A stretch of 64,000 nucleotides of DNA from Eubacteriales bacterium (GTDB lineage Bacteria > Bacillota > Clostridia > Lachnospirales > Lachnospiraceae): positions 62,001-126,000 of the forward strand of contig JAUNHC010000001.1 in the NCBI GenBank assembly GCA_030524175.1, given 5' to 3'. Shown piece after piece: positions 17,145 to 63,927 of this stretch. Made by a program: the position numbers and the translations under genes. The stretch's first letter is position 1; each line of letters opens with the position of its first letter. The notes under the pieces were generated by a model. That model saw only the letters and a list, made by a program, of their open reading frames with translations, ran no database searches and had not been told where the DNA came from.

Positions 17145-17173
17145 GTTTAAGTTATGTTTACGTAATATTAAAA
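17145..17173 (-). promoter_or_regulatory. 29-bp regulatory element, copy E2
   Basis: Minus strand begins TTTTAATATTACGT and continues AAACATAACTTAAAC. It matches the five other copies in core AAACAWAA and both TTAA-type boxes. A plausible -10 (TTATAT) lies about 18 bp after the last box, so the element overlaps the -35 region, as expected for an OmpR-type activator. Lies 81 bp before the 16693-17064 gene. Confidence 0.72.
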
Positions 17174-17211
17174 TGAAGCCTTTAACAAAACCTCTTCATT
17201 CAGAATCGGCG

Positions 17212-17493
17212 CTAGCTACCAGTGGTATCCTTCCCATTTTCGCTGCCGGGTTTCTGGGTCTCATCCTCTTTTTCAAGGAATGCATCTACAAAAGAATCTT
17301 CAATCTTCTTATAGCCGCCGACAACCGTATCTTCAATCTTCTGGTATGCATCCGTTGCCTTTTTCGCCATACCTCCTGTTTTCAATGAACCGTCTTCCTC
17401 CAGAAAAGTATCCACGAACTTATCTTCGATTCCCTTATATGCCTTTATCACCTTTTCTCCTATTTTTCCTGTTTTTAATTTGTACTCGCTCAT
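17212..17493 (-). CDS. Small repeat protein with three AYxKIED units
   Basis: 93 residues from ATG 17493, because AAGGAGG is correctly spaced from it and not from the ATG two codons earlier. Soluble and charged. Three imperfect repeats: KAYKGIEDKFVDTFLEED, DAYQKIEDTVVGGY, YKKIEDSFVDAFLEKED. The amphipathic repeats suggest membrane-surface or coiled-coil association. It ends in a low-complexity polar tail. It is the third gene after element E3, behind two micro-membrane proteins, so it likely works with them. I do not know a named family. Confidence 0.7.
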   Translation of the reverse strand: MSEYKLKTGKIGEKVIKAYKGIEDKFVDTFLEEDGSLKTGGMAKKATDAYQKIEDTVVGGYKKIEDSFVDAFLEKEDETQKPGSENGKDTTGS

Positions 17494-17556
17494 AAGCATC
17501 CTCCTTCTTTTAACTTCGCCGGCATAAGCATCCTATCTCCAAATTAGACAGATTTC

Positions 17557-17679
17557 TTAAAACGCCCCTGTACTCCGTGAAAACACCTGCCCAATGACAG
17601 GAACCACAACTTTCCAGATTACAATTACTCCTAAGATAACACCAACTCCCGCTCCAATACCTAATACTGCTTTCTTCAT
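17557..17679 (-). CDS. 40-residue single-span membrane peptide (type B)
   Basis: ATG 17679 has GGAGG upstream with normal spacing. The peptide starts MKKAVLGIGAG, has one glycine-rich hydrophobic helix ending IVIWKVVVPVIG, then a short polar tail (QVFSRSTGAF). It closely resembles the 37-residue peptide at 28115-28228 (MKKVLLGTAG...IVIWKIVIPFIG), which also follows a 29-bp element. The shared IVIWK-V-P-IG motif argues that both are real translated genes. Function unknown; a membrane stress peptide or a toxin-like peptide are possibilities. Confidence 0.7.
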   Translation of the reverse strand: MKKAVLGIGAGVGVILGVIVIWKVVVPVIGQVFSRSTGAF

Positions 17680-17705
17680 GATAAAATCCTCCTTTTTACA
17701 TGTCT

Positions 17706-17816
17706 TCAATACCCATTGCCAGACCGCCTGTACCCCATTTGTTTCTTTTTCTTTACAAACACTGCCACCACACCTGCCGCTATTACAACAAGTGCTGCTA
17801 CTACAACCTTTAACAT
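17706..17816 (-). CDS. 36-residue Lys-tailed membrane micropeptide (type A)
   Basis: ATG 17816 with AAGGAGG 7 bases upstream. Starts MLKVVVAALVV, has one helix of about 20 Ala/Val/Ile residues, then VKKKKQMGYRR and a short tail. The head and Lys-rich tail match the 27-28 residue peptides at 25092, 25214 and 62817. It is the first gene after element E3. The layout (short N-terminus, single helix, positive C-terminal end) suggests the C-terminus stays in the cytoplasm. Confidence 0.72.
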   Translation of the reverse strand: MLKVVVAALVVIAAGVVAVFVKKKKQMGYRRSGNGY

Positions 17817-17947
17817 TCAATGTCCTCCTTTTTCATTCTGTCTGCAGTATCATGATATTATCGCAGACTTTATCTGTTTTTGTACCAGATTTCCTGTTAC
17901 TGTATTGATCTGATGAAAACAGAATACAGCAGAAATATTTGACTTTT

Positions 17948-17976
17948 AATTAAATCTTGTTTCTGTAATATTAAAA
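17948..17976 (-). promoter_or_regulatory. 29-bp regulatory element, copy E3
   Basis: Minus strand begins TTTTAATATTACAG, then AAACAAGATTTAATT. It is the most diverged copy in the right box but identical to E1 and E2 over the first 12 bases. Lies 132 bp before the 17816 micropeptide start. Confidence 0.65.
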
Positions 17977-18033
17977 AAATGAAAAAGAACCGCCTCCTCT
18001 GACGCTCCTTTCTCATCCTTTCAATTATATTAC

Positions 18034-18582
18034 TTATATCAATAAATCTTTCCCTTTCCTGCACACCTCATAGAGTTCTTCCATTTCATCTTCGATCAAA
18101 GGCTGTATCTTGGCCGCCCTTTTTCTGACAAGCACCCGGTACACAAACCAGGGTGCAATCCAGCCGGCAAACCCCGGAATGGCAAGGAGGATACACAGCA
18201 TAATAAGCGGAGGCTCTGCGGTCACTGCAAATACGGAGCCTGCCATACAGGCAGTGCCCACAACGCCAATTACCATTGCTGCAATTGTTGCAAAGGTCGT
18301 TTTGGACTTTTCCAGCCTGTCAATTTCCAGAATACAGCCGTCAAAATTTCTCTGCAGCCTGGTCAGTTCCACCTTATTGCATATCTTCCTGTCCCGCCGG
18401 AAATTTAAGTTCACATATCCTCCCGGATGAATCCGCTCCTGTACGGTCTCTGCATTCGGATCCTCTTCCCATCCAAAACAGGGATAACTGTCCAGATACA
18501 AAGAAGCGTGTTCCCTCAATATTTCCTTTCTTTTATATTCGTAACCCACATATTCGGACCCGCCTTTGCTGACTTCTGTCAT
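18034..18582 (-). CDS. Membrane protein of unknown function, paralog of 62918-63448
   Basis: 182 residues. The N-terminal soluble part begins with GYEYKRKEILREHASLYLD and contains FRRDRKICNKVELTRLQRNFD, followed by two membrane spans (about 100-150, with GTACMAGSVFAVT) and a charged C-terminal tail. The protein at 62918 shares the order and motifs (VGYEY, RDRKIRNKVELTRLQRNFDA, GTAFMAGSVFAVT). Its ATG overlaps the stop of the sensor kinase gene by 4 bp, so the two are translationally coupled. A role as an accessory membrane partner of the kinase is inferred from that coupling. Confidence 0.75.
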   Translation of the reverse strand: MTEVSKGGSEYVGYEYKRKEILREHASLYLDSYPCFGWEEDPNAETVQERIHPGGYVNLNFRRDRKICNKVELTRLQRNFDGCILEIDRLEKSKTTFATIAAMVIGVVGTACMAGSVFAVTAEPPLIMLCILLAIPGFAGWIAPWFVYRVLVRKRAAKIQPLIEDEMEELYEVCRKGKDLLI

Positions 18583-19691
18583 GAAATCACCTCCCGTTCT
18601 TTACCTTCCTGTTCCTTTTCCATTACAGGGGAAACTGGGAACCTCACGCGGAAATCAGTTCCTTTCCCTTCCTCGCTTTTCACCGTAATCATTCCTCCGC
18701 TCATCTGCAATATACGGAGGATCAACGACAGCCCCAACCCATTTCCTTCCGTTGCATGGGAAGTATCCCCCTGATAAAACTTATCAAACATCCGTTTCAT
18801 GGTCTGTTCCGACATACCACATCCGGAATCAGATACCTCTACCGTAATATATCCCTGGGCAGAATACTGGCGTATGCCCACCGTACCGCCTGCATCCGTG
18901 AATTTAAACGCATTGGATAAAAGGTTGTTCCATACCAGCTCCATCAGCTCCTTGTCCGCCTCCACATAAGCACACTCTTCCATGTCAGCTTCAAATTCAA
19001 TCCCTTTCTTTTCCCAGACCGCCTCAAACCCAATGGCACACACGGCCAACTGGCCGCACAGGTCATACCTCTCGGGCTTCGGCTGTATCTTTTGACTCTC
19101 CAGCTTATTAAGTTTTAAAACATTAAAAATCAAAGAAGAAAGGCGTTTTGTACTTTCCAGTATGGCGTCTGCATACTCCCGCTGCACAGTATCCAGTTTT
19201 GTTCCCTGTAATAGCTGTACATAATTATTGATAGCGGAAAGGGGCGTTTTCATTTCATGGGACACATTTGCTGCGAAATCATTCTTCAGCGTTTCAATGG
19301 AACCAAGCTCCGCCACCATCTTATTAAAATCCATATACAGGGTGTCAATATAATCCATATCATTGGGCGCGTGGCGGAGCGGGAGGTATACGGAGAAATC
19401 TCCCTCCGCGACCTTCTTCGCAGCAATGCTCAGCCTGCGGATCGGGCGCTCCACCGTCATGTACTTATGCAGATTGAGCGCCGACAGAATCACAGCCGTA
19501 ACTACAACACAGTAAATAAAATACCATTTTACATAAGGCCCGGACTCATCCCGGATCAAATGGATGCCCCCATACAAAACAGTGGGCAGCATCATCAAAG
19601 TACCCACTGCAAAAAACAATGCGAGATAAATGGGGAATACAAAATAGCTCCGGGATATTCTCGGATCTGTTGTTTTTTCCTCCTGCTTCAT
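18579..19691 (-). CDS. Sensor histidine kinase of the small-membrane-protein regulon
   Basis: 370 residues: two membrane spans (about 15-38 and 57-75) with a very short loop between them, a HAMP-like region (PIRRLSIAAKKVAEGDFSVY), HisKA motif NVSHEMKTPLS (about 143-153) and an HATPase domain (NNLLSNAFKF, DSGCGM, GNGLGLSLI). The nearly absent external domain suggests it senses the membrane itself, as in cell-envelope stress kinases. The gene overlaps the regulator by 4 bp. Located in the operon that starts at the dehydrogenase gene behind element E1. Confidence 0.92.
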   Translation of the reverse strand: MKQEEKTTDPRISRSYFVFPIYLALFFAVGTLMMLPTVLYGGIHLIRDESGPYVKWYFIYCVVVTAVILSALNLHKYMTVERPIRRLSIAAKKVAEGDFSVYLPLRHAPNDMDYIDTLYMDFNKMVAELGSIETLKNDFAANVSHEMKTPLSAINNYVQLLQGTKLDTVQREYADAILESTKRLSSLIFNVLKLNKLESQKIQPKPERYDLCGQLAVCAIGFEAVWEKKGIEFEADMEECAYVEADKELMELVWNNLLSNAFKFTDAGGTVGIRQYSAQGYITVEVSDSGCGMSEQTMKRMFDKFYQGDTSHATEGNGLGLSLILRILQMSGGMITVKSEEGKGTDFRVRFPVSPVMEKEQEGKEREVIS

Positions 19692-20359
19692 AGGATCACC
19701 GCCTTATATCCCAGACCTCGGATTGTCTTGATCTGTATGTTCTTACAGACAGAAAACTTATCCCTCAGCTTTGTCACATAAACATCCACCGCACGGAGCC
19801 CTGTGTCACTATCCACACCCCAGAACTCATCCAGAAGCTGAGCCCTGGAAAAGGTATGGTTCGGATAAGACAGCAGCTTAAACATAATATTAAATTCCCG
19901 TGTCGTAACGGTAATCTCCTCATCGCCGTACATGACCGTCATGGCGTCCGCGTCCAGAATTAATTTCCCCACCACCAGCCTCCGGCTTTCCTCAATATTG
20001 GCACGCCGAAGAAGCGCCCTGACCCGCATCAGAAGTTCACTCATGTCAATGGGTTTAACCATATAGTCATCAATCCCTATATCAAACCCTTTCTGTTTCG
20101 ATATCATATCATCTCTGGCACTCATGAATAATATTGGAATCCGTCTGTTGAGCCTGCGGACATTCTCCGCAAACGCAAACCCGTCCGTTCCCGGCATCAT
20201 GATGTCAGAAATGATCAGGTCATAAAGCACTCCGTACATTTCTTCATAGGCACGCTCCACTGACAGTACGCCTTTTGCCTGATATCCGCTGTTATTCAGA
20301 TAAGCACAGACACTCTGCGTCAATTTTGCGTCATCATCTACCACAAGTATAGAAATCAT
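19688..20359 (-). CDS. OmpR-family response regulator of the small-membrane-protein regulon
   Basis: 223 residues: receiver with DDD (8-10), phospho-acceptor Asp52 (LIISDIMMPG), Thr/Ser and Lys (YMVKPID, about 99-105), then a winged helix ending TKLRDKFSVCKNIQIKTIRGLGYKAVIL. It is co-transcribed with its kinase and lies downstream of element E1, so it is the best candidate to bind the 29-bp element. OmpR proteins bind direct repeats about one or two helical turns apart, which fits the element's two TTAA boxes at 21-bp spacing. Binding itself is inferred. Confidence 0.93.
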   Translation of the reverse strand: MISILVVDDDAKLTQSVCAYLNNSGYQAKGVLSVERAYEEMYGVLYDLIISDIMMPGTDGFAFAENVRRLNRRIPILFMSARDDMISKQKGFDIGIDDYMVKPIDMSELLMRVRALLRRANIEESRRLVVGKLILDADAMTVMYGDEEITVTTREFNIMFKLLSYPNHTFSRAQLLDEFWGVDSDTGLRAVDVYVTKLRDKFSVCKNIQIKTIRGLGYKAVIL

Positions 20360-21060
20360 CTTTCCTCTTCCTTTCTTTCCAGACAGGCATTTTCCCGTGC
20401 CTCCATTTTCCCGATCCGCCAGATCAGATACCCGCCAAGCAAAGCGGCCACAGCCCCCATGATAGAACCAAGCAGACCGTTCACGGATGGATTCTGCACA
20501 TCATCTGCAAATGCAAGAATCGCTGATTGGGTCAGTACCAGAGAGATCAGGGAAGTTCCAAGGCTGATGGTCTTAATCGCGTGGAGCACAGGGGATTTTG
20601 CTTTCCTGTATTTCATGACTCCCCGCAGATTCATCCCGATTTCAGTAAAGGTGATCGTAGCAATGGTGATCGCCGTGATTTTCCCATAATACACCGTTTT
20701 CGGGTGCCAGATTGTCCACAGGGAATATGCCACATAAAGCAGGCTTGCCGCCACCATGACCGCGCCTGCCAGACGGTAATAATCATACTGGCGCCTCCGC
20801 CTGTCCTTCTTCGCCAAACCTGCCAGCGCGCAATACCGTGCCAATGCCATTCCCAGGGTATAGCCGCCATTCATACAGACAAACCCCGACATGGAAAACA
20901 CCCCTGACGCAATCTTTCCCACGCCAAGAAGAATACTAAAACCGCCTACAGCGCCGGTGATATGCAGTGAACGGCTATCGGACGCATTGTTGTTTTCCCG
21001 GACCGCACTGCTGATCTCCTTTATCGCTTTTTTACCTGAACGCAGCCAATGTAAACCCAT
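20356..21060 (-). CDS. Multi-span membrane protein of unknown function
   Basis: 234 residues with about six hydrophobic segments; a basic N-terminus (GLHWLRSGKKAIKEI) and an acidic/basic C-terminal tail. Motifs such as GVGKIASGVFSMSGFVCMNGGYTLG do not belong to a family I recognise. It overlaps the response regulator by 4 bp and follows the dehydrogenase by 21 bp, so it is inside the same operon. It is probably another envelope component controlled by, or signalling to, the two-component system. Confidence 0.72.
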   Translation of the reverse strand: MGLHWLRSGKKAIKEISSAVRENNNASDSRSLHITGAVGGFSILLGVGKIASGVFSMSGFVCMNGGYTLGMALARYCALAGLAKKDRRRRQYDYYRLAGAVMVAASLLYVAYSLWTIWHPKTVYYGKITAITIATITFTEIGMNLRGVMKYRKAKSPVLHAIKTISLGTSLISLVLTQSAILAFADDVQNPSVNGLLGSIMGAVAALLGGYLIWRIGKMEARENACLERKEEER

Positions 21061-21081
21061 CTGTAGCTCCCTCCTGCATGA

Positions 21082-22092
21082 TTAAAACCGGATTGCCACA
21101 TTCAACGCATGATCTGCATCCGATGCCGTCCGGATTGCCTCGTCAATCTCATCAATCGAAAATTCATGGGTAATGACAGATTCCAGATTCCATCTCCCGC
21201 CTGCCATCATGTCCATGACATCCTTTACATCTTCGGGAAAATAACCGCCGGAACCAATGATGCTTTTCTGTGCGTAAGTCATATGAAGCAGGTCGAGCTG
21301 ACGCATTGAATTGTTCACTGCCACGGACACAAAGCGGCTCTCTATTTTCCCATGCACCATAAAATCCTCCAGAATACTCTCATGGCCTGCGGCATCCAGA
21401 AAGATGTCCGCATCCGCCGTATCCCCCGTAAGAGCTGGCGCCCTGCCGAAATATTCCTCTGCTTTTTCCCACACAGGTTCTTTTGCTGTATTGCAGACTG
21501 CAAAACCAAGTTCTCCTGCAATATGCAGCCGGTAATCTGATAAATCACAGACCATTACCTGCTCCACACCAAAATGTTTCAGAGCGACTGCCGCAGCCAG
21601 ACCAATGGTTCCGCAGCCAAACACTATAGCTTTTTCTCCCGGCTTGGGCTGTCCCCGCCTGGCTGCCCTGCATCCCACCGTAAAAGGTTCAATCAGACAG
21701 GCCAGCCGGTCCGAAATCTGTTCCGGCACGTCATACAGGGAATAATTCTTTTTTGCCTGCGGCACAAGGATATATTCTGAAAATCCGCCAATGGTGCCCG
21801 CCCGTCTGGTGTCATTTTTTGCGTAGCGGGGATATGGATAAACTCTTTCCCCTATCTGAAATTCCGTCACATTTTTACCAACTGCCACAACCCTGGATAC
21901 TGTCTCGTGGCCAAATTCCTCGCCAACAGCAATCCTGTGCCCTGTATTTGCTCCATGCTGATAGACTGCCACATCCGTTCCGCAGATACTGGAATAGATA
22001 TTCTTGATCAAAACATCATTTCCCCCGCATTCCGGCAGGGGAAATTTTCTTACCTCTACCTGATTTTTTCCTAAATAAATTGCCGCTTTCAT
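21082..22092 (-). CDS. Medium-chain zinc-type alcohol/polyol dehydrogenase
   Basis: 336 residues from ATG 22092, which restores the usual MKAAIYLGK start (an ATG three codons earlier abuts GGAGG). Catalytic zinc ligands Cys37 (SICGTD), His62-Glu63 (GEEFGHE) and Glu near 136 (LIEPFTVG) are present. The four-Cys structural zinc site is absent. The Rossmann motif is VFGCGTIGLAA. It oxidises a secondary alcohol or polyol using NAD(P). It is the first gene after element E1 in a unit continuing to the two-component system, an odd partner for it. The 17816-16693 genes lie further downstream under their own elements. Substrate unknown. Confidence 0.88.
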   Translation of the reverse strand: MKAAIYLGKNQVEVRKFPLPECGGNDVLIKNIYSSICGTDVAVYQHGANTGHRIAVGEEFGHETVSRVVAVGKNVTEFQIGERVYPYPRYAKNDTRRAGTIGGFSEYILVPQAKKNYSLYDVPEQISDRLACLIEPFTVGCRAARRGQPKPGEKAIVFGCGTIGLAAAVALKHFGVEQVMVCDLSDYRLHIAGELGFAVCNTAKEPVWEKAEEYFGRAPALTGDTADADIFLDAAGHESILEDFMVHGKIESRFVSVAVNNSMRQLDLLHMTYAQKSIIGSGGYFPEDVKDVMDMMAGGRWNLESVITHEFSIDEIDEAIRTASDADHALNVAIRF

Positions 22093-22155
22093 CTTTCCCA
22101 TTCCTCCATATCAGTACAATGCTATCTGAGAATATCATCTGTTCGTTTTCATTCT

Positions 22156-22184
22156 GTTTAAGTTTTGTTTTAGTAATATTAAAA
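22156..22184 (-). promoter_or_regulatory. 29-bp regulatory element, copy E1
   Basis: Minus strand begins TTTTAATATTACTA, then AAACAAAACTTAAAC. It differs from E2 at only a few positions. Lies 64 bp before the dehydrogenase start, with a possible -10 (GATATT) 19 bp after its right box. Its operon encodes the OmpR/kinase pair, implying autoregulation. Confidence 0.73.
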
Positions 22185-22314
22185 TTAAGGCATTTTCATT
22201 CTTTTTTCCAACGTGTGTTGCTTTTATACCAGCTTTGTATTATGATTTTATCATCAGCTTACACACTGTTCAATCATCAATACATCGATTCGTGTTGGAA
22301 TAAAGGAGATTTTT

Positions 22315-22884
22315 ATGAATACAAAGAATAACCAAAGATTTCGTGATATGGATAAGAAATTGAAAGCTACAATGCTGGAGCTTTTAGAGACAACTGATTT
22401 TGAAAAGATTACCGTAAAGTCTATATGTGAAACTGCCCATGTAAACCGCTCCACCTTTTATGCCCACTATTCCGATGTCTATGAGATCATGGAACAGATG
22501 GAAGAACATCTGAATGAAGAACTGTTGGAAAGCTATACCGGCAGCCCACAGGAAAAGGACAGCGTATTCCCCATGTGGCCGTTCATCCCTTTTCTGCGCC
22601 ACATTAAAAAGTACGCCTGCTTTTACCGGACAGCTTTGAAGCAGCGCAGGGATTTTCCAATAAAACAGGGGTATGAGCCTATGTGGAACCAGATTATAAA
22701 ACCCAAATGTATTGCCGCAGGTATCACCTCAGAATCAGAAATGCTCTATTATTTTGTCTATTTCCAGGCAGGCTTCACAATGGTTCTGAGGCGTTGGGTA
22801 GATACCGGATGCCAGGAGTCAGAGGAAGCGGTTGCCCGGATTATTGAAAACTGCATACCTGCTATATGGAATACAATACAATAA
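22315..22884 (+). CDS. TetR/AcrR-family transcriptional regulator
   Basis: 189 residues, with AAAGGAG before the ATG. N-terminal helix-turn-helix (about 20-60): LLETTDFEKITVKSICETAHV then NRSTFYAHYSD. The C-terminal ligand/dimer domain resembles TetR_C-type regulators of phage-infection or stress operons. It is divergent from the dehydrogenase operon, with element E1 between them, so it may control that operon, itself, or both. Ligand unknown. Confidence 0.9.
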   Translation: MNTKNNQRFRDMDKKLKATMLELLETTDFEKITVKSICETAHVNRSTFYAHYSDVYEIMEQMEEHLNEELLESYTGSPQEKDSVFPMWPFIPFLRHIKKYACFYRTALKQRRDFPIKQGYEPMWNQIIKPKCIAAGITSESEMLYYFVYFQAGFTMVLRRWVDTGCQESEEAVARIIENCIPAIWNTIQ

Positions 22885-22912
22885 AGCGGGCGCACCGATG
22901 ACGGGTTATTCA

Positions 22913-23623
22913 TTACCCCTGGCTTACAATTGCGTTTCCAATTCTTTGCTTTACTTCCTTTGCAATGTCTATTGTTTTCATGTTTCTATATTCTTCATAT
23001 AACAGTGGACGTAAAATATGCACCTGTACAGTCACTGGTTTATCGGTTTCCGTATCAAAAGGAAGATAGGAATCAATCAATGCTACCGGGACGATGGGGC
23101 ATTTTGTTTTTACTGCTGGTTTAAAACTGCCTCCTTTAAAATCCCGCAGCTTATTCCCTTCTCTGCTCCTTGTACCTTCCGGAAAAATCAAACAGTTCTC
23201 TTTATCCTTTACCCGTCTCATTACCTCAATCATTACTTCCATAGATTGCCGGACATTCTCCCGGTCCATTGGCATAGCATCCAAACAGCCAAATATCTGC
23301 TTTACAAACGAAACCTGCATAAGTTCTTTTTTAATGACCGGTGAAAATGGCCTGTCGCAAGCCTCTACCATTGCAAATCCATCGAAAATCCCCTGATGGT
23401 TGGGATAAAAGATAAATCCATCCTCATCTGGTATATTTTCCTTTCCGGTAACCAGCAGATTAATATTTCCGGTCTTCATGGACCGCCTTGAGATGTAATT
23501 GACAAGCTCATACCTCTGTTCTTTTGTATATCTGTCTTTATGTTTCACGTAACTGCGGAGTCTTAAATATAATGCGGGGATTTTTAACAAATTTTTCACT
23601 ACGATAAGGTTTAATCTTTTCAT
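22913..23623 (-). CDS. 1-acyl-sn-glycerol-3-phosphate acyltransferase family (PlsC-like)
   Basis: 236 residues from ATG 23623 (AGGTGA 5 bases upstream; the longer frame overlaps the preceding gene). Block I is NHQGIFD with His76 and Asp81 (HX4D), block III is FPEGTRS, and PIVPVALID follows. PlsC-type enzymes acylate lysophosphatidic acid or related lipids at the membrane. It lies 8 bp behind the radical SAM gene, so both are expressed together from element E4. A generic plsC would not need such a partner, so a specialised lipid step is likely. Confidence 0.88.
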   Translation of the reverse strand: MKRLNLIVVKNLLKIPALYLRLRSYVKHKDRYTKEQRYELVNYISRRSMKTGNINLLVTGKENIPDEDGFIFYPNHQGIFDGFAMVEACDRPFSPVIKKELMQVSFVKQIFGCLDAMPMDRENVRQSMEVMIEVMRRVKDKENCLIFPEGTRSREGNKLRDFKGGSFKPAVKTKCPIVPVALIDSYLPFDTETDKPVTVQVHILRPLLYEEYRNMKTIDIAKEVKQRIGNAIVSQG

Positions 23624-23631
23624 CAGTTCAC

Positions 23632-25008
23632 CTATCTGTTGTCTGTTCCGCACTTTCCACAGGCCATACATTTATTGGACTCAGACCATAATCTTTCGGC
23701 CACCGGTTTCCATTTTGCGGCAGTAAGCACACATTTATCAGAAAACTCTTTTGCGGTCTCCAGATTTTGGTAATCTGTGCTTATGGCACCGCTCTTTTCT
23801 ACAATTTCTGTCAATCGACCTGGATTGTCCAGTACCGGGCATGGGCGGAGCATGTTGTCATTCCACGGCTGGTTGTCATGGTATCCCATGAATAAGGGTG
23901 AGCGGTAAGCCTCTAATAATGTCTTTTCCCGGATATTGGAATCAGAATAATGGATGAAAGCACAGGGTTCAATGTCTCCGTTAGCATTGATATGACAGTA
24001 GCTCCTGCCACCGGCAATGCAGCCGCCAACATATTCACCGTCATTCCAGAAATCAACCGTAAATATTGGCTTCGTCTGACGGTACTCACGGATCTTGCGA
24101 TACATCATCTCACGCTGCTTAGCCGTAGCCATCAGTTCAGGTACCGCTCCTTTTCCAACCGGCATATAGGTGAAGAACCATGCAAATTTAGCTCCCAGTT
24201 CGATCATATAATCAAAATATTCTTCACTGCCGATTACCTCTGCATTATCGCTTGTATAACAGCAGGAAATTCCAAAGGGAAGTTTTTTCTTTTTTAAGAT
24301 AGACATGGCATTTAAAATTTTTTCATATGTTCCCTCACCGCGTCTTCCATCTGTCGCCTCCTCAAATCCTTCAATGCTGATTGCCGGCATGAAGTTCTGC
24401 ACGCGGAGCATCTCGTCAGCAAAGGCTTCATCGATTAAGGTTCCATTGGTAAATGTAGAGAACACACAGTCCTGATGCTCCTCACATAACCGGATAATGT
24501 CTTTTTTCCGCACCAGTGGTTCCCCTCCCGTAAAAAGATACACATAAGTTCCAAGTTCAACCCCCTGGTTTACGATATCATCCATTTCTTCATAGGTCAG
24601 GTTCATATGATTACCATACTCGGCAGCCCAGCATCCGGTACATTTCAGATTGCAGGCACTTGTGGGATCAAGTAAAATTGCCCAGGGCACATTACAGTTA
24701 TATTTTTCCTTGTTTTCTTTCTGTCTTTGGTACCCCAGCAGACATCCGTTGATGATCAGGTTTTCAAACAATCTATTCCGAACTCTGGCATCAATATCAG
24801 ACCACAGGCTCATGACCAGCTTATACCAGTTGCCTTTTTTGTTCCCCATAACTTTGTGGATTGCTTCTCTTTCTGTTTTCAGGGTATTTTTTCTATCAAA
24901 TTTGTCAAACCATGCCAGCAATTTGGGCATATTTTTTTCTGGATCTTTGTCAAGATATCCAAGCGCCGTTTTCACAGCCAGAGCTTCAACATTTTCTTTT
25001 ATTGCCAT
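23632..25008 (-). CDS. Radical SAM protein with SPASM-like C-terminal cysteines
   Basis: 458 residues from ATG 25008 (GAGGAC upstream). An N-terminal helical region of about 105 residues precedes the radical SAM motif Cys119-x3-Cys123-x2-Cys126 (SACNLKCTGCW). GGEP (FTGGEPL) and ISIEG follow. Later Cys residues (GGCIAGGRSYCHINANGDIEPC) look like a SPASM/twitch auxiliary cluster, and the end has CMACGKC. Known relatives modify peptides or act in lipid or cofactor pathways. The gene follows two 27-residue membrane peptides and precedes a PlsC. Both a lipid-modifying role and a peptide-modifying role are open; I cannot choose from sequence alone. Confidence 0.9.
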   Translation of the reverse strand: MAIKENVEALAVKTALGYLDKDPEKNMPKLLAWFDKFDRKNTLKTEREAIHKVMGNKKGNWYKLVMSLWSDIDARVRNRLFENLIINGCLLGYQRQKENKEKYNCNVPWAILLDPTSACNLKCTGCWAAEYGNHMNLTYEEMDDIVNQGVELGTYVYLFTGGEPLVRKKDIIRLCEEHQDCVFSTFTNGTLIDEAFADEMLRVQNFMPAISIEGFEEATDGRRGEGTYEKILNAMSILKKKKLPFGISCCYTSDNAEVIGSEEYFDYMIELGAKFAWFFTYMPVGKGAVPELMATAKQREMMYRKIREYRQTKPIFTVDFWNDGEYVGGCIAGGRSYCHINANGDIEPCAFIHYSDSNIREKTLLEAYRSPLFMGYHDNQPWNDNMLRPCPVLDNPGRLTEIVEKSGAISTDYQNLETAKEFSDKCVLTAAKWKPVAERLWSESNKCMACGKCGTDNR

Positions 25009-25091
25009 TCTTTTGTCCTCATTTCTTCTATTATCTTTAGCAAAAGAGACTTCAGACATTCTTCCCAAATCCCTGTGCTTTGTGTATTTCC

Positions 25092-25175
25092 TTATTTTTT
25101 ATTCTTCTTAACAACTGCGGCAATAGCGCCTGCTACTACAGCCACTACAGCTGCAACAACTACTTTAATAGCCAT
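25092..25175 (-). CDS. 27-residue Lys-tailed membrane micropeptide
   Basis: ATG 25175 preceded by GGAGGG at 7 bases. MAIKVVVAAVVAVVAGA is followed by AAVVKKNKK and stop. One Ala/Val-rich helix with a Lys-Lys-Asn-Lys-Lys end, exactly the same length and tail as the peptide encoded just upstream at 25214. Two such genes in tandem, each with a good ribosome site, argue for real translation. It lies 83 bp before the radical SAM start. Function unknown. Confidence 0.72.
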   Translation of the reverse strand: MAIKVVVAAVVAVVAGAIAAVVKKNKK

Positions 25176-25213
25176 ATGTCATCCCTCCTTTTTCTATTTC
25201 CATGTACTCTTTT

Positions 25214-25297
25214 CTACTTTTTATTTTTCTTAACAATTACTGCAATAGCCACAATAACAACAATTACTACTGCCACAACAACGATTTTTCCCAGCAT
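25214..25297 (-). CDS. 27-residue Lys-tailed membrane micropeptide
   Basis: ATG 25297 preceded by AGGAGG at 9 bases. MLGKIVVVAVVIVVIV is followed by AIAVIVKKNKK. More Ile-rich than its neighbour but with an identical KKNKK end. It is the first gene after element E4. Single-span; the positive tail probably stays on the cytoplasmic side. Confidence 0.72.
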   Translation of the reverse strand: MLGKIVVVAVVIVVIVAIAVIVKKNKK

Positions 25298-25384
25298 TTC
25301 TATTTTCCTCCTTTGTTTGATATGTAGTCATTGACACGGTACTTCAACAACAATGCCATCATACGCCTTGATTATTTAAAAATT

Positions 25385-25413
25385 GATTCAATTTTGTTTG
25401 AGAAAAATTAATA
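25385..25413 (-). promoter_or_regulatory. 29-bp regulatory element, copy E4
   Basis: Minus strand begins TATTAATTTTTCTC, then AAACAAAATTGAATC. Core AAACAAAA and both TTAA/TTGAA boxes are conserved. Lies 88 bp before the first micropeptide of the radical SAM/PlsC unit. Confidence 0.7.
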
Positions 25414-25523
25414 TCTCACCTTCGGCAAACAAGCCACCGTAATTGTAATGCCTGCCATGACCCGAACAACAGGAAAAACAGATGGCTGGCAAATAGTAGC
25501 CAGGATAAATGATTAGAATCCCT

Positions 25524-26381
25524 TTATTGAGCCACAATCCCGCCAACTCCAAATGCACCAGGTCCTGCATGTGTCGAAATAACACAGCCTGTTTGAACCC
25601 ATCGGACATTTGAATACCCTTTTTCTCCCAGAAATTGTCCGGCTTTTCTCATCGTATCTTGTGACAGTCCTTTTGAATACAACAGGTATATATCTTCTTT
25701 TCCAAATTGATTATTTTTCAACACATCTTCTAACAGCCTTAAACAAACCGTACTCATTCGCCCTCTATATTTTTTTGTAGAAACTAGATATCCATTTTTT
25801 ATTTCAATCATAGGTTTTAAATGTAAAATATTTGCGCCAATATATTGGGCATTGCTCACCCTTCCTCCTGCAAGAAGGTAGTCCAGGTTTTCCGGTATAA
25901 AATACATCCGGGCATTTTCTATCCACTTATGAATAGCTGCCACCAATTCATCCAATAATATGTTTGGATGGGTCTCCAAATATTTTGCTGCCTTTATTAC
26001 AAGATTGCCCTGACCTGCACTTACTGATTTTGTGTCAATATGGGTAATGCCTGAAATACCATCGCTTCCAATGATTGCATTTTGCCATGTTGCGGTTGTC
26101 ACCGCTGAATAACACAGATGAAGGATTTTGCAATCTGGATTCTGTTGCTTGATCTTTAAATATGCCTCTCGGTATTCCTGCGGATTTGTTGCACTCGTAG
26201 ACGGAATCTGCCTGGTTTGTTTATAATATGTAAAGATTTCATTTGGCAGGAAAGCTCCATCATTCAGATTATGTTCCCCAAAAGCTACATGCATGGGTAC
26301 AATATGTATTCCCAGTTTCATTGCGGTTTTTACAGGTATATCAGCTCCACTTTCTGTCAAAATGATAATTTTTCTTAGCAT
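25524..26381 (-). CDS. DegV-family fatty-acid-binding protein
   Basis: 285 residues from ATG 26381 (GGAGTTTGACG upstream). Two-domain DegV layout: ILTESGADIP near the N-terminus, IPSTSATNPQEYREAY (lipid-contact Ser/Thr region), VSAGQGNLVIKAA, then LDYLLAGGRVSNAQ and HAGPGAFGVG at the end. DegV/FakB proteins hold a free fatty acid for phosphorylation by FakA and entry into phospholipid synthesis. It is last in the unit with the hydrolase and PadR genes, close to PlsC, consistent with lipid metabolism. The partner kinase is not in the window. Confidence 0.92.
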   Translation of the reverse strand: MLRKIIILTESGADIPVKTAMKLGIHIVPMHVAFGEHNLNDGAFLPNEIFTYYKQTRQIPSTSATNPQEYREAYLKIKQQNPDCKILHLCYSAVTTATWQNAIIGSDGISGITHIDTKSVSAGQGNLVIKAAKYLETHPNILLDELVAAIHKWIENARMYFIPENLDYLLAGGRVSNAQYIGANILHLKPMIEIKNGYLVSTKKYRGRMSTVCLRLLEDVLKNNQFGKEDIYLLYSKGLSQDTMRKAGQFLGEKGYSNVRWVQTGCVISTHAGPGAFGVGGIVAQ

Positions 26382-26411
26382 CGTCAAACTCCATTCTTAA
26401 TGTTTATATAC

Positions 26412-27362
26412 TCAACCTGGTATTTTCTGTAGATTCCATCCAAAAAATGTATTTAATTTTTCTATATATCCGTTTTCGTCTTTTAAAAAAGATTTGCAAT
26501 GTTCTGCCCCTTGGATGAGCAAAATATCTTTTTTGGATGCACACGAATCATAATTCTGTATGCTCCGCTGTGCCGGAACAAATTTGTCCGAACTCCCATG
26601 AACAAAAAGAATAGGCACTCTGCAGTTTCTCAAGGAATCCGTTGTTCTACACTGTTTTAGGTCATATCCCGCCTTTTTTACGCAGATACGGTTTACCTGA
26701 TCCACCGCCGTTTTGTCCTTCATTTTCATCATGTCATGTGCAAAAATATTTACCATATCGTAAGGCGAAACAAATCCACTGTCTGCAATGATCCCGGAAA
26801 TATCTTTTTCTTCCACCTGATTGGATGCCATCATTACTGTTGCTGCCCCCATAGATACTCCCATCAAAAAGCAGGGTATATCCTGCTTTTTCAACTGCTT
26901 TATTTTTTTAATCCAGCTAAGACAGTCCTTTTGTTCTAAAACCCCAAAACCAATATATTTTCCATCGCTGGCTCCATGTGCCCTTTGGTCAACAAATAAT
27001 AAGTTACAATTATTTTCATGGAACACTTTAGCATGGTCTGCAAAGTCCCATCTCCAACTTCCACGCCATCCATGAAATAAAAGGATTGTTCGTTTCGGAT
27101 TATCTGCCTCCAGATAATATCCGGACAACATTAATCCATCCTCACTCTCCAGAGACATTTTTTCCATATCCTGACCAGCAAGCCATGCTATATTCTTCTG
27201 GTGTCTTATTTTGTCCTCGTCCGACAACATCTGCTTATTTTTCCGATTCAAAAATTTATGTATATTAAAGCGGATCCTTCCGACTGCCAGATTGAAATAA
27301 ATAACGTATTTTAATTTTTTAATAGTCAATATAACTACAGACAGTATCAATATGATTTTCAT
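26412..27362 (-). CDS. Alpha/beta hydrolase with N-terminal membrane anchor
   Basis: 316 residues from ATG 27362 (AAGGACGGGG upstream). An N-terminal hydrophobic segment (IILILSVVILTI) anchors it. The hydrolase fold shows the oxyanion region LFHGWRGS (about 95-102), nucleophile elbow GVSMGA, acid GSSDKFVP and a late His (GAEHCKSF). It resembles YqkD/FrsA-type cell-surface esterases. It stands between PadR and DegV genes, so an acyl-ester substrate feeding fatty acid to DegV is a reasonable but unproven idea. Confidence 0.87.
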   Translation of the reverse strand: MKIILILSVVILTIKKLKYVIYFNLAVGRIRFNIHKFLNRKNKQMLSDEDKIRHQKNIAWLAGQDMEKMSLESEDGLMLSGYYLEADNPKRTILLFHGWRGSWRWDFADHAKVFHENNCNLLFVDQRAHGASDGKYIGFGVLEQKDCLSWIKKIKQLKKQDIPCFLMGVSMGAATVMMASNQVEEKDISGIIADSGFVSPYDMVNIFAHDMMKMKDKTAVDQVNRICVKKAGYDLKQCRTTDSLRNCRVPILFVHGSSDKFVPAQRSIQNYDSCASKKDILLIQGAEHCKSFLKDENGYIEKLNTFFGWNLQKIPG

Positions 27363-27415
27363 TTTCCCCGTCCTTTTTAATATAACTGCCAATGGTAAAA
27401 ATGCTTATGGACCAT

Positions 27416-27727
27416 CTACTCCAGCCACCGGTCCAGAATATCCTTTTCTATATGATACCTATCCTTCAGAGATTGAAGTTTTTTATTTCCTTCCTCTGTA
27501 ATAAAATAGTACTTTCTTGCTCGTCCCTGACTGATGTGTAGTTTTTCATCCGCCCTTACAAACTCCTGTTTTTCCAGTCTATTAAATATAGTATAAATTG
27601 TAGAATCCGAAAGCTTCAGGAACACCCCTAATATATTCTTGATTTCATATGGGTACCTTCCATTTTCGCTTTCACTTAGAATGGAAAGTACCAGTGCTTC
27701 TAAATACTGTTTATTAGTTAACATCAT
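27416..27727 (-). CDS. PadR-family transcriptional regulator
   Basis: About 103 residues from the ATG pair at 27727/27724. A longer frame would need a TTG inside the preceding gene. The winged helix shows LVLSILSESENGRYPYEI (helix 1 and turn), SDSTIYTIFNRLEKQEFV (recognition helix) and GRARKYYFITEEG (wing). PadR repressors respond to phenolic or membrane-active compounds. No clear ribosome site is seen; translation is probably coupled to the upstream membrane-protein gene, which stops 22 bp before. Confidence 0.88.
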   Translation of the reverse strand: MMLTNKQYLEALVLSILSESENGRYPYEIKNILGVFLKLSDSTIYTIFNRLEKQEFVRADEKLHISQGRARKYYFITEEGNKKLQSLKDRYHIEKDILDRWLE

Positions 27728-27749
27728 AAATTTGTGCCAAAATATACAT

Positions 27750-28079
27750 TTAAGCAAAGAGCAGATTTACAGCTGGAAGACCACCATTCGCCAGGCAGGC
27801 TGTCCCCATCACTACAACTGCAATAATAACCAAAACTGCACCAAATATATATTTCTTATTTCCCTGTAGCTTAGCTTTTGCCAATTGTTTTGGTACTAAG
27901 AGTAAAGTTACTCCAATTGATAAAAAGAGGGATGCAATAAATACTGCCGCTGTCCCAAATCCAAGAGGTATATTTACAATAAACAACACAACTGAACCCA
28001 CAATACCCAAGACAGCAATTGCCCATCCTAAATATTTGGTTCCAACTAATAATCCATCAATGCATTCAAAAAGTTTCAT
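27750..28079 (-). CDS. Small membrane protein with four hydrophobic segments
   Basis: 109 residues from ATG 28079 (AAGGAGG 8 bases upstream); the longer open frame overlaps the micropeptide gene in another frame and is not used. Starts MKLFECIDGLLVGTKYLGW and has hydrophobic segments around 18-35, 40-62 and 78-95. No motif recognised. Second gene after element E5, before PadR. Resembles the other small membrane proteins of this regulon in size and topology. Confidence 0.72.
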   Translation of the reverse strand: MKLFECIDGLLVGTKYLGWAIAVLGIVGSVVLFIVNIPLGFGTAAVFIASLFLSIGVTLLLVPKQLAKAKLQGNKKYIFGAVLVIIAVVVMGTACLANGGLPAVNLLFA

Positions 28080-28114
28080 AGCTTGTTCCTCCTTAATTTT
28101 TACTTTATTTGGAA

Positions 28115-28228
28115 TCAAAAAATTAGAGACATAATATTGCCGATAAACGGAATAACTATTTTCCAGATTACAATTGCACCTACGGCCACACCTGCAATAC
28201 CTGCGGTTCCCAACAATACTTTTTTCAT
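28115..28228 (-). CDS. 37-residue single-span membrane peptide (type B)
   Basis: ATG 28228 with AGAGGTG upstream. MKKVLLGTAGIAG leads into a Gly/Val helix, then IVIWKIVIPFIG and NIMSLIF. It aligns over its length with the 40-residue peptide at 17557. First gene after element E5, followed 35 bp later by the four-segment membrane protein. The conserved Trp-Lys and Pro in the second half suggest a defined membrane-interface structure. Function unknown. Confidence 0.7.
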   Translation of the reverse strand: MKKVLLGTAGIAGVAVGAIVIWKIVIPFIGNIMSLIF

Positions 28229-28289
28229 CTTCATTCACCTCTCTTCTGCTGTAACTGCTTTCACTTTACCAATTCTTTGTTTTCGTATT

Positions 28290-28318
28290 ATTCAAGTTTT
28301 GTTTGTAAAAAATTAATT
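28290..28318 (-). promoter_or_regulatory. 29-bp regulatory element, copy E5
   Basis: Minus strand begins AATTAATTTTTTAC, then AAACAAAACTTGAAT. Lies 62 bp before the 28228 micropeptide, the first gene of the unit that continues through PadR, the hydrolase and DegV. Confidence 0.72.
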
Positions 28319-28812
28319 TGATAACGTATGTTGCTTTTTATCAGATTAGATCCTAATTAATTATTACCATGAAAAAATCGTAAGGCCGTATAAAGTACAC
28401 CTGCCTTAATGATTATCAATTTTGAAAACTACGAGAAAACAAGGCTTCACCAATGACACCCAGAATTATGACAAAAATACATACCGCCAATAGAGGCAAA
28501 AATTCCTTCCCAATCATTTTACAGAGATTACGACTTTCCACACTGTTGTTTTGATTCCACGGACCACTGTTTTAGTTTCTTAGCGGTTTTATCGATTTCG
28601 CATTATTCAGGACTTAACAGCTGTCCATCTTGCCCCCCCCCTCATCACATGCTCTGCAATTTTTAAACTTTTATTTAATTTACTCTCAATTAACAATTTG
28701 TTGTTCCTTTGAATTATGATATGCTTCCTTTGGGGCCGCGGGAGTAGTATATTAAACGTAACAGACAATCGCCAGTCAAAGGACTGTCACTTTTCTAAAT
28801 CATGACAAAAAA
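28319..28812. other. Gene-poor stretch with one membrane-protein fragment
   Basis: About 490 bp without an intact gene. It holds a membrane-protein remnant (28416-28559, listed separately), a run of nine C at 28635-28643 and AT-rich DNA. No RNA gene or promoter could be supported. Confidence 0.5.
28416..28559 (-). pseudogene. C-terminal fragment of a membrane protein
   Basis: The minus frame runs from an in-frame stop to TGA at 28416 and reads WNQNNSVESRNLCKMIGKEF, then a hydrophobic segment LPLLAVCIFVIILGVIGEAL and FSRSFQN. It looks like the last membrane span and tail of a larger transporter subunit. No start or ribosome site is present upstream, so it is read as a truncated remnant. Confidence 0.35.
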
Positions 28813-60264: not shown

Positions 60265-60271
60265 ATTTTTT

Positions 60272-62346: not shown

Positions 62347-62495
62347 AAATGATACTCCTTCCAAATTGTTTCCCATTTCAACTATTTTAAACAATTTTGT
62401 GGAATTAGTCAACCATTTTTTTGATATTATGGGAAGATTATGAATGAAAAAAATAGGGCCAATTTCTCAGCCCCATAATATATCTATATAGCATA

Positions 62496-62725
62496 TTACT
62501 TTTTAATATAATGTAACATTGCAACATCACCGCTTGACTTCATCTCCGCTAATAAATACTCTGAAACTTTTCCCTCCAGTATACCACCACCGCTAATTAC
62601 AACAGGGAAAAGATTAAAGTATAAATCGTCTGCAAGCCCTGTTTCCAAAAAAGCGTTGTATGCTTTTGTTCCACCTACAACACATATTTTTTCATATCCA
62701 CATCCGGTTAAATAAAGAACCGGGG
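62496..62725 (-). pseudogene. C-terminal fragment of a dihydrofolate-reductase/RibD-like protein
   Basis: The minus frame, open to a TAA at 62496, reads GYEKICVVGGTKAYNAFLET, then LADDLYFNLFPVVISGGGIL, the second half of RibD_C/DHFR-family proteins (VVGGxxxxxxFL...LVDELxLxxxPVVxGxG). There is no start codon and the front part is gone. Lies between the MarR-GNAT gene and the micropeptide unit. Confidence 0.7.
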
Positions 62726-62816
62726 TACTCTGCTACCTTATATGGTATTTTTTATCTGCCGTACAGACCCTTTTTCCTTGGAGTAATTCAATGTGACCAG
62801 ATCAATCATTTTGGGT

Positions 62817-62903
62817 TTATTTCCGTTTCTTAATCACAATACCTGCTACTACAAAAGCAGCGCTCAGGGCTACTGCTATTGCTGCTAAAATTCCTTTTTT
62901 CAT
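62817..62903 (-). CDS. 28-residue Lys-tailed membrane micropeptide
   Basis: ATG 62903 with GGAGG 7 bases upstream. MKKGILAAIAVALSAAF then VVAGIVIKKRK and stop. Same plan as the peptides at 17706, 25092 and 25214: short head, one Ala/Val/Ile helix, basic tail. Third gene of the unit behind element E6, 14 bp after the 62918 membrane protein gene. Confidence 0.68.
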   Translation of the reverse strand: MKKGILAAIAVALSAAFVVAGIVIKKRK

Positions 62904-62917
62904 GTGAAATCCTCCTA

Positions 62918-63448
62918 TTATTCAACGCCGTCAAGCAGCCCGTTGGCTTTTTGGCAGACAGCATAGAGTTCATCATATTTTTTATCTATCTCCGGTGTGA
63001 CCGCCGCCGTTTTTCCCTTTTTAATTTTCTGAAAAAGGAAATATGGCAAAATCCAGCCAATGAAAGCGGGGATGGCAAGCAGGATACAGGGAATCACCAG
63101 CCCTGACGTTACCGCAAAGACGGAGCCTGCCATAAATGCAGTTCCTACAATCCCCACACTGAAAGCAGCTATCGCGGCTTTATTGGATTTGGATGCTTCA
63201 AGAGAAAGGATCTCCGAAACACAGGCGTCAAAATTGCGCTGAAGACGGGTTAGTTCTACCTTATTACGGATTTTACGGTCCCGTTTGAATTTCATCCTGA
63301 CAGAATCCGTCATCGGTTTGTCAGAGAGTTCTTCCGTTTTATCAAGCTTCCAGCCAAAATTTTCATAGCCGTCGGCATAGACGGAAACCATACTCCGTTT
63401 TACTGCTATATCCTGATACTCATAACCAACAAAATTGTTTTCACTCAT
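62918..63448 (-). CDS. Membrane protein of unknown function, paralog of 18034-18582
   Basis: 176 residues: soluble head with VGYEYQDIAVKRSMVSVYAD, FKRDRKIRNKVELTRLQRNF, then two membrane spans with GTAFMAGSVFAVT and ILPYFLFQKI, and a polar tail. It matches the protein at 18034 in order and motifs. In that locus the gene is coupled to a sensor kinase. Here it is coupled to a 118-residue membrane protein and a micropeptide. Unknown function. Confidence 0.75.
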   Translation of the reverse strand: MSENNFVGYEYQDIAVKRSMVSVYADGYENFGWKLDKTEELSDKPMTDSVRMKFKRDRKIRNKVELTRLQRNFDACVSEILSLEASKSNKAAIAAFSVGIVGTAFMAGSVFAVTSGLVIPCILLAIPAFIGWILPYFLFQKIKKGKTAAVTPEIDKKYDELYAVCQKANGLLDGVE

Positions 63449-63462
63449 TTATTCTTTCCTCC

Positions 63463-63819
63463 TTACTCGTTCACAAGACTGTCAGACAAACGCATGATTT
63501 CATCTGCGTACTTCTTTTTGCGGCTGTTTGTGATCAGTGCATACAACGGATATGCCAGCAGTGCAGCGACCATTCCCGGAATACTGAGGGCAAGTCCGGT
63601 TGTCATGACGTCCCATACCATGATCATTGACATTCCTGCCCCCATCACCAGCACACCGATCACACCTAAAATGCAGGCGGCAATCCGGCCGGGAGTTTTC
63701 ACTTTATTGTCTACCTTTTGAAGCTGCTCCATCTTGTTATCCCTGTGGGGGATATACTGGCGGCGGATATCTTCCGCCTTTCTCTGTTCCTGTTCACTTG
63801 CTTTGTAATTACTCATCAT
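63463..63819 (-). CDS. Small membrane protein with charged N-terminus
   Basis: 118 residues: a charged helical head (SEQEQRKAEDIRRQYIPHRD), two membrane spans (about 48-70 and 76-96, with GVLVMGAGMSMIMVW) and a basic tail. The span motif GxGMxxxMVW recurs in the protein at 16693. GGAGATTTTAA precedes two ATGs; either may be used. First gene after element E6. Confidence 0.74.
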   Translation of the reverse strand: MMSNYKASEQEQRKAEDIRRQYIPHRDNKMEQLQKVDNKVKTPGRIAACILGVIGVLVMGAGMSMIMVWDVMTTGLALSIPGMVAALLAYPLYALITNSRKKKYADEIMRLSDSLVNE

Positions 63820-63898
63820 TTAAAATCTCCTTTTCTTTTATCCAGGACTTTTTGTCCTTCATCATGTCTGTATCTTACATCCGTTTTATTTAGGGAAT

Positions 63899-63927
63899 GC
63901 TTGAATTGTGTTTGAAAATTATTAATT
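63899..63927 (-). promoter_or_regulatory. 29-bp regulatory element, copy E6
   Basis: Minus strand begins AATTAATAATTTTC, then AAACACAATTCAAGC. It has the weakest right box but the same core and left TTAAT box. Lies 80 bp before the 63819 start, the same range as the other copies. Confidence 0.62.

Follow-up and report, generated by a model that had tools for sequence, protein, structure and literature searches.

A 58-bp element before small membrane protein genes in Clostridia and its candidate OmpR-type regulators

Small and tiny membrane proteins are numerous in gut Clostridia, and most have no assigned function. The DNA analyzed here (the window: 64,000 nucleotides (nt), C71:62001-126000 of the 5.95-Mb genome of a Eubacteriales bacterium) raises the question of why several units encoding such proteins start with the same short sequence, and which regulator reads it. 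A preliminary description, made from the letters alone, had placed six minus-strand copies of a 29-bp element at 17145, 17948, 22156, 25385, 28290 and 63899 and had named an OmpR-type response regulator (RR_A) and its histidine kinase as candidate controllers; all six copies were recovered at these places. The explanation favored here, with a probability of about 0.82, is that an autoregulated, intramembrane-sensing two-component system activates a membrane-homeostasis regulon through one operator-promoter.

The element and its copies in the genome

Using a 28-column matrix built from the six copies, these were the top six among all window positions on both strands (scores 28.0-34.1; next 18.7). 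In leave-one-out scoring the withheld copy took a rank between 4 and 6 among all positions, so that in the worst case no sequence other than the five training copies scored higher. A matrix from 73 foreign sites, containing no window sequence, gave the six copies 45.3-52.2 and a seventh site, also on the minus strand (14367-14424), 35.2; the next window score was 14.2, and random DNA reached at most 12.3 (one strand of each of 40 64-kb sequences from a first-order Markov model). The six copies were aligned on AAAC without gaps. Identity among them was 67% within a block from -14 to +28 and 26-30% in the tested stretches outside it, and the element is therefore short and bounded, with no copied upstream segment.

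The 29-bp outline, with boxes about 21 bp apart, turned out to be part of a larger structure: the full operator-promoter element is 58 bp, -10 box included, and the two boxes belong to a run of half-sites spaced by 11 bp. The consensus over 79 sites is TTTTAATATTTC-nn-AAACAAAACTC-AAACA-n6-AAACAA-n6-GG-TAnnAT; models A4 and R2 were built from the six window sites and 73 of 92 strong sites from relatives (described below). Four half-sites follow each other in 11-bp phase, TTAAYA and then AAACA three times, with AA-Y-A blocks at -10, +1, +12 and +23. When the information content of the 73 foreign sites was folded on 11 bp, phases 0-4 held 1.2-1.6 bits and the other phases 0.3-0.75 bits. Among the aligned window copies AAA recurs at +22, and TANNNT is invariant 36 nt past the first A of AAAC (6/6). 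The earlier wording of the core as AAACAWAA and of the right box as YTTRAA holds loosely, as the copies at 17948 (AAACAAGA) and 63899 (AAACACAA, TTCAA) deviate from the exact form. No -35 hexamer was recognizable in the six window sites. If the -10 box occupies its usual place, the half-sites would lie at about -60, -48, -37 and -26. Tandem half-sites in approximately 11-bp phase upstream of a -10 box, the arrangement taken here to define OmpR/PhoB operators, are present, and the element is, to judge from this layout, an activator-type OmpR/PhoB operator-promoter.

A search of the whole genome with model R1 returned eight matches with E values up to 2.5e-4; every one is on the minus strand and falls within C71:79118-129787. 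The next match had E = 2, with 150/2494 (R1) and 150/3305 (R2) first-look candidates fully scored, such that weaker sites elsewhere can be missed. The scattered random matches that the preliminary description had named as a counter-sign did not appear: strong matches were confined to one contig stretch and followed by a gap in E from 2.5e-4 to 2. The eight strong copies share this 51-kb stretch with two paralogous OmpR/kinase pairs, and adding the seventh window site extends the cluster to C71:76368-129787. At the seventh site no match was reported by R1 in the genome search, and R2 gave a weak one (11.1 bits, E 2.9).

Two of the eight strong copies lie just outside the window. One heads an 87-amino-acid (aa) membrane protein, a second OmpR regulator (RR_B), a second kinase and a third member of the family of the 182-aa protein encoded after the first kinase; the regulator, kinase and two-transmembrane (2-TM) protein of this set (C71:127037-129787, L098) are 72%, 51% and 52% identical to those of the window. 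The other copy precedes genes for a CmpB-like membrane protein and a further amidase-like protein. Model R2 added, at C60:6776, a weak match (E 0.0044) immediately upstream of a truncated third regulator copy close to a contig end; this locus (L124, G000:C60, 6776-7370) holds a third element and then the truncated copy, which has 164 aa and is 69% identical to RR_B.

Linkage of the element to the regulator family

RR_A carries the two domains that define OmpR/PhoB regulators (PF00072, E 3e-23; PF00486, E 3e-18). In its own genome it had 58 matches, itself included, that extend beyond residue 200; RR_B was 72% identical and all others ≤37%, and among own-genome regulators RR_A and RR_B alone were found in units headed by the element. 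No element was found directly before the regulator genes RR 49538 and RR 28844 or the LytTR regulator gene when the window was scanned with the foreign-site matrix.

Conservation was assessed in 80 loci, the best 80 of at least 579 RR_A relatives; close named relatives among the matches listed were those of Faecalicatena orotica (96%), Murimonas intestini (94%) and Hungatella hathewayi (79%). With the six-site matrix, 53/80 loci contained matches scoring >26, in total 82 on the regulator's strand and a single one on the opposite strand; 60 column-permuted matrices gave means of 0.05 and 0. At the lowest cut-off of 14, the counts were 145 vs 15, with 15.5 and 11.3 for the permuted matrices. Model R1 found 70 matches at E ≤ 0.1 in these loci, all on the regulator's strand. 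When the upstream part was used alone, without the -10 box, 103 of the matches lay on the regulator's strand and 11 on the opposite strand; TANNNT stood at exactly +36 in 87 of the 103 (next offset, 15). The element is thus kept upstream in relatives, as the preliminary description had required of a true regulon, at a strand count far above that of permuted matrices. The 92 strong sites are those of the 103 with a score >24 or with a -10 box.

Co-occurrence was measured in a family sample of 150 genomes drawn blind (regulator cut-off, E ≤ 1e-60; site, E ≤ 1e-3) and a class sample of 196 genomes (regulator cut-off, E ≤ 1e-65); these searches scored part of each genome's first-look candidates. 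In the family sample the regulator was present in 30 genomes, the site in 28 and both in 25 (Fisher p 2e-20; 9e-20 without the own genome), that is, the site was found in 25/30 genomes with the regulator vs 3/120 without. The class sample gave 9, 12 and 7 (p 1.4e-8; 1.7e-7 without the own genome), or 7/9 vs 5/187. The expectation that element and OmpR/kinase pair would occur together was borne out for the regulator in both samples. With the own genome left out, 56 family sites had E ≤ 1e-3, a threshold by which an opposite-strand site in G079 (E 0.0034) was excluded. Of these, 33 lay on the regulator's contig within 100 kb, all 33 on the same strand and 0 on the opposite one, 24 of them within 10 kb; another 19 were located on different contigs, and the last 4 in genomes lacking a close regulator. 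Sites farther from the regulator were seen in G087, where seven matrix matches (five at E ≤ 1e-3) lie approximately 58-67 kb from the regulator, before the same gene families. The regulator family very probably controls the element, a reading that rests on this linkage and on the operator layout.

The description of the kinase as having almost no external domain agrees with the predicted layout: two TM helices are joined by a short loop, 9-21 residues in the family. In the window kinase the gap between the 19-residue TM windows is 18 residues. A hydropathy window placed two TM segments within the first 130 residues in 38/39 full-length kinases, with gaps of 9-21; two TM helices and an extracytoplasmic loop of <25 residues are what defines an intramembrane-sensing kinase. 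Because of this architecture, the kinase most likely senses the state of the membrane itself, possibly together with the surrounding 4-TM and 2-TM proteins.

Target genes

Positions of the elements, regulators and targets are collected in Table 1. The distances of 55-132 bp originally given between element and gene fit when the 29-bp element's 3′ end and the start codons are taken as the two end points. Each of the six units encodes a small membrane protein, as first described, provided that the 182-aa 2-TM protein is counted for the 22156 unit; the seventh starts with plsY. The account of a regulon of small membrane proteins has accordingly to be widened, as lipid enzymes and a zinc-type dehydrogenase are present too. 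A terminator scan supported a stop at 14501-14477, before the seventh site, and otherwise left the units undefined. In the F. orotica locus (L018) a site-headed run consists of the 123-aa gene, directly followed by plsY, the amidase-like gene and the Mbeg1-like gene, which agrees with regulon membership of the last three.

Table 1. Elements, regulators and target genes, given as window positions unless a contig is named
Feature	Position	Strand	Remarks
Element + -10 box	17117..17174	minus	before 123-aa 4-TM protein
Element + -10 box	17920..17977	minus	before two tiny TM peptides and 11-mer amphipathic protein
Element + -10 box	22128..22185	minus	before dehydrogenase, 4-TM protein, response regulator, histidine kinase and 182-aa protein (autoregulation)
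Element + -10 box	25357..25414	minus	before two 27-aa TM peptides, radical SAM enzyme, acyltransferase
Element + -10 box	28262..28319	minus	before 37-aa TM peptide and 109-aa membrane protein
Element + -10 box	63871..63928	minus	before 118-aa membrane protein, 176-aa paralogue, 28-aa TM peptide
Seventh, weaker element, TACTAT -10	14367..14424	minus	about 50 nt before plsY; absent from the preliminary description
OmpR-type response regulator RR_A	19688..20359	minus	Response_reg + Trans_reg_C
Second OmpR regulator RR_B	C71:128765-129433		outside the window; 72% identical to RR_A
Histidine kinase	18579..19691	minus	2 TM, HAMP match under cut-off, HisKA, HATPase_c
182-aa 2-TM protein	18034..18582	minus	after kinase; one of three paralogues found in genome region
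234-aa 4-TM protein	20356..21060	minus	upstream of regulator; same position in many relatives
Zinc-type dehydrogenase	21082..22092	minus	first gene of regulator unit
Tiny TM peptide, 36 aa	17706..17816	minus	
Tiny TM peptide, 40 aa	17557..17679	minus	
93-aa protein, 11-residue amphipathic repeats	17212..17493	minus	
123-aa 4-TM protein	16693..17064	minus	commonest first gene behind element in relatives, 24/92
Tiny TM peptide, 27 aa	25214..25297	minus	
Tiny TM peptide, 27 aa	25092..25175	minus	
Radical SAM enzyme, 458 aa	23632..25008	minus	
PlsC-type acyltransferase	22913..23671	minus	
Tiny TM peptide, 37 aa	28115..28228	minus	
109-aa 3-TM protein	27750..28079	minus	
118-aa 2-TM protein	63463..63819	minus	
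176-aa 2-TM protein	62918..63448	minus	49% paralogue of 182-aa protein
Tiny TM peptide, 28 aa	62817..62903	minus	
PlsY glycerol-3-phosphate acyltransferase	13681..14316	minus	behind seventh site; PF02660, E 6e-40
YaeF/YiiX-like permuted papain amidase candidate	13191..13697	minus	invariant His + Cys in nine members
Mbeg1-like lipase-fold protein, membrane tail	11678..13291 (start uncertain)	minus	PF11187, E 2e-59 on 11678-13174

Behind the 92 strong sites of the relatives (59/80 loci), the first gene belonged to a small envelope family in 71 cases, with labels that cover the families of the window region alone: 123-aa 4-TM, 24; 182/176-aa, 14; 11-mer protein, 10; 118-aa family, 10; CmpB-like, 4; tiny TM peptide, 3; 234-aa type, 3; amidase-like, 2; other small TM, 1. 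The remainder were dehydrogenase (2), a 526-aa protein (2), DegV (1), regulator (1), other (9) and no gene called (6). The 526-aa protein of one distant relative (L097:8128) is cardiolipin-synthase-like, with PLDc_N and two PLD domains, and that of another distant relative (L093:7578) has a similar start. Tiny TM open reading frames (20-45 aa, ribosome site, basic tail; a rule set after the peptides had been seen) occurred within 1.5 kb of 7/90 relatives' sites vs 0/325 control gene starts (p 2e-5). In five further loci (L019, L053, L056, L057 and L125) the radical SAM gene belongs to a site-headed run, and in three of them it comes after a 176-aa-type gene.

The 93-aa family (21 members) had a mean self-identity of 0.245 at lag 11 and 0.18 at lag 22, and all remaining lags between 3 and 21 gave 0.055-0.13; its repeat units are of the type VVGGYKKIEDG, and it was found in 20 further loci. 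Amphipathic helices with 11-mer repeats occur in perilipins and synuclein. A weak similarity to DUF2207_C recurred in 40/53 members of the 182-aa family; no name was given to this protein or to the tiny peptides on the strength of their weak Pfam and NCBIfam matches. Weak matches to Peptidase_C92 (PF05708) were found in 5/9 members of the amidase-like family (best E 0.01) and none for 13191-13697, and a search of the PDB with the amidase-like protein gave chance matches alone. Modification of the tiny peptides by the radical SAM enzyme, as for ribosomally synthesized and post-translationally modified peptides, was considered and left as a guess; the peptides lack cysteine and resemble simple TM helices.

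The peptide at 17706-17816 has 25 aa in F. orotica, where a stop codon follows KKKK and the downstream tail sequence is still conserved. Two copies of one gene order (4468-11640 and 29849-38142), which we take to be glycosyltransferase 2, GtrA-like membrane protein and two GH3-type beta-glucosidase-like proteins, flank the 11678-28319 part of the regulon; their first genes are nearly identical by eye, suggesting a duplication or recombination target. Just upstream of the 28290 unit, 28844-29536 encodes an OmpR-type C-terminal domain and an N-terminal part with no Pfam receiver match at E ≤ 0.1, and is possibly an orphan, atypical regulator.

Proposed regulation, alternatives and known systems

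For binding, sign, signal and physiology we infer the following course. A membrane-state signal would raise kinase activity, and RR_A and/or RR_B would bind the element after phosphorylation, with two tandem regulator dimers occupying the four half-sites in 11-bp phase. The dimers would take over the role of the missing -35 box in bringing sigma-A polymerase to the fixed -10 box, such that phosphorylation would activate all units, the regulator's own included, giving positive feedback. The output would be membrane maintenance through tiny TM peptides, small membrane proteins, the 11-mer protein, lipid acyltransferases and the radical SAM enzyme. Activation is the sign of regulation to be expected with high probability; that membrane homeostasis is the purpose of the regulon is given even odds. 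The nomination of the window's OmpR/kinase pair is supported by co-occurrence and has to be shared with the second pair: both carry the same element, and therefore the controller may be either or both.

Other explanations of the shared sequence were weighed against this. Were the element the promoter of an alternative sigma factor (for example, of the extracytoplasmic function type) and not a response-regulator operator, an upstream motif at fixed distance from the -10 and the lack of a visible -35 box would be accounted for. The -10 is, however, a sigma-A-like TANNNT, 11-bp repeats carry the conserved part to about 48 bp upstream of this box, well past the -35 contact of a sigma factor, and the element tracks the OmpR regulator in the genomes searched for that regulator; a sigma-factor promoter is very improbable. 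The same low probability is given to a reader among the neighbors, namely the LytTR regulator (15896-16609), RR 28844 or RR 49538. All are in the window and the LytTR pair lies behind a site-headed gene, but the site accompanies close RR_A relatives in the blind genome samples, in which RR_A relatives were the regulators counted, plsY directly follows the 123-aa gene in L018 with no LytTR pair labelled between, and RR 49538 is just 34-35% identical to RR_A/RR_B and has a unit without the element.

That the same regulator acts on the same operator as a repressor, with kinase signalling switching the promoters off, is improbable, though less so than these two: half-sites at -37 and -26, if rightly placed, could block polymerase, whereas the six window sites have no recognizable -35 box, so that the promoter would need help, and the -10 spacing is fixed, as at activated promoters. 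Least probable of all is common descent of duplicated upstream segments with no shared function. Paralogous targets (the 182/176-aa proteins, the amidase-like proteins, and the regulator and kinase pairs) speak for it, but flank identity is 0.26-0.30 outside the block and many relatives have the element before unrelated genes.

Activation by the RR_A/RR_B family is, then, preferred, and several observations weigh against it. The recognition-helix stretch is barely more conserved than the receiver (0.83 vs 0.77); two paralogous regulators share the element, which tells against assignment to one; other regulators (RR 49538, RR 28844 and the LytTR one) lie in the same stretch; tiny TM open reading frames, although enriched, accompany a minority of relatives' sites (the 7/90 above); and the lipid theme draws on a few genes. 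Sites without a close regulator (3/120 family and 5/187 class genomes) and regulators without a site at E ≤ 1e-3 (5/30 and 2/9) also count here. Six of these exceptions stand unexplained. The 10 kb taken from G177 contain a site before 123-, 234- and 118-aa-type genes and no regulator; in G111 two strong sites precede an 11-mer protein and an acyltransferase-like gene, and the best regulator is 37% identical; the site in G138 lies within approximately 1 kb of a contig end; and in G015, G093 and G308 the regulator is present and no site was found in the stretches taken.

The exceptions inspected, which leave out G181, G190 and G210, include others of a different kind. In G155 a contig end behind the site truncates the regulator. 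Matrix sites are present in G163 and G023 (43.6 and 39.5) that were lost in the search or placed at E 0.003, probably owing to the search filter. A weak match (24.9) lies just before the regulator in G121, and another weak one (21.2) about 3 kb away on the other strand in G126; in G053 there is a weak match, and a regulator of 45% identity is found elsewhere.

A bolder extension, in which a widespread gut-Clostridia system senses lipid packing and remodels the bilayer via peptides, acyltransferases, a cardiolipin-synthase-like enzyme (in some relatives) and the radical SAM enzyme, is rather unlikely. If it were true, the tiny TM peptides and the perilipin/synuclein-like 11-mer protein would fill or coat packing defects, and the radical SAM enzyme might be a membrane-spanning lipid synthase; to our knowledge, no regulator of bacterial membrane-spanning lipids has been described before, and this would be the first. 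Short of that, a computer-readable 58-bp operator in many genera would group small membrane proteins and the 2-TM family under one regulator, with membrane state as the likely shared theme. The operator makes knock-out, reporter and lipidomic tests direct and lets further members be collected from related genomes. The statement in the preliminary description that no regulon of this content was known agrees with searches of the openly accessible literature, which listed none, although that does not prove absence.

Promoters with the Bacillus subtilis PhoP box, in which TTAACA-like direct repeats at 11 bp lie in the -20 to -60 region upstream of the -10, are activated without a good -35 box; LiaR is not known to be an OmpR-type regulator. 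Unlike the PhoP system, the kinase here has no large sensor domain, and no phosphate-starvation gene was among the labelled first genes of the 92 sites, 17 of which are labelled 'other' or 'none'. In the available part of the source, RR_1586 of Clostridioides difficile is an OmpR-type regulator that binds direct repeats of an 11-nt motif (PMC6222199); it is a different regulator, linked to sporulation. LiaFSR/SapRS of Enterococcus faecalis, as far as the accessible text goes, is a two-component network with accessory proteins and lipid remodelling under membrane attack (PMC13123819), with genes and operator unlike those here. The accessible portion of a paper on Clostridium thermocellum binding sites (PMC8457756) contained nothing on OmpR regulators.

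Mss, a radical SAM enzyme, is a membrane-spanning lipid synthase, and 561 Lachnospiraceae species have mss and ger homologues, according to the part of the source available (PMC13274423). The radical SAM gene here adjoins phospholipid acyltransferases, and the closest named relatives of the genome include Faecalicatena; no Tes was named among the PDB matches, of which the radical SAM protein had 4 at E ≤ 1e-5 and its profile 9 at E ≤ 0.01, and no comparison with Mss was made.

SaeRS of Staphylococcus aureus offers further points of likeness, as described in the available portions of two papers. SaeR binds the direct repeat GTTAA-N6-GTTAA with an 11-bp period (PMC5083920, PMC9600363); SaeS has two TM helices, a predicted nine-residue linker, HAMP and a kinase domain and belongs to the intramembrane-sensing class (PMC5083920); the sae operon is autoregulated, with the auxiliary 4-TM protein SaeQ encoded upstream of saeR; and SaeS activity depends on membrane branched-chain fatty acids (both, PMC5083920, PMC9600363). 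The 27 PDB matches of RR_A at E ≤ 1e-20 did not include one named SaeR, and no direct comparison with SaeR was made. To the extent covered by these sources, the two systems have in common the 11-bp repeat period, the short-loop two-TM kinase, autoregulation, which is predicted here, and a 4-TM protein upstream of the regulator. They differ in the half-site, which here is NNAAYA/AAACA in four copies with a fixed -10 and does not match GTTAA-N6-GTTAA, and in the targets, which here are small membrane proteins and lipid genes and in the Sae system secreted virulence factors. The mechanism is that of the known OmpR/PhoB type of regulon; what is new is the content: in many Clostridia, one operator brings together a set of small membrane families.

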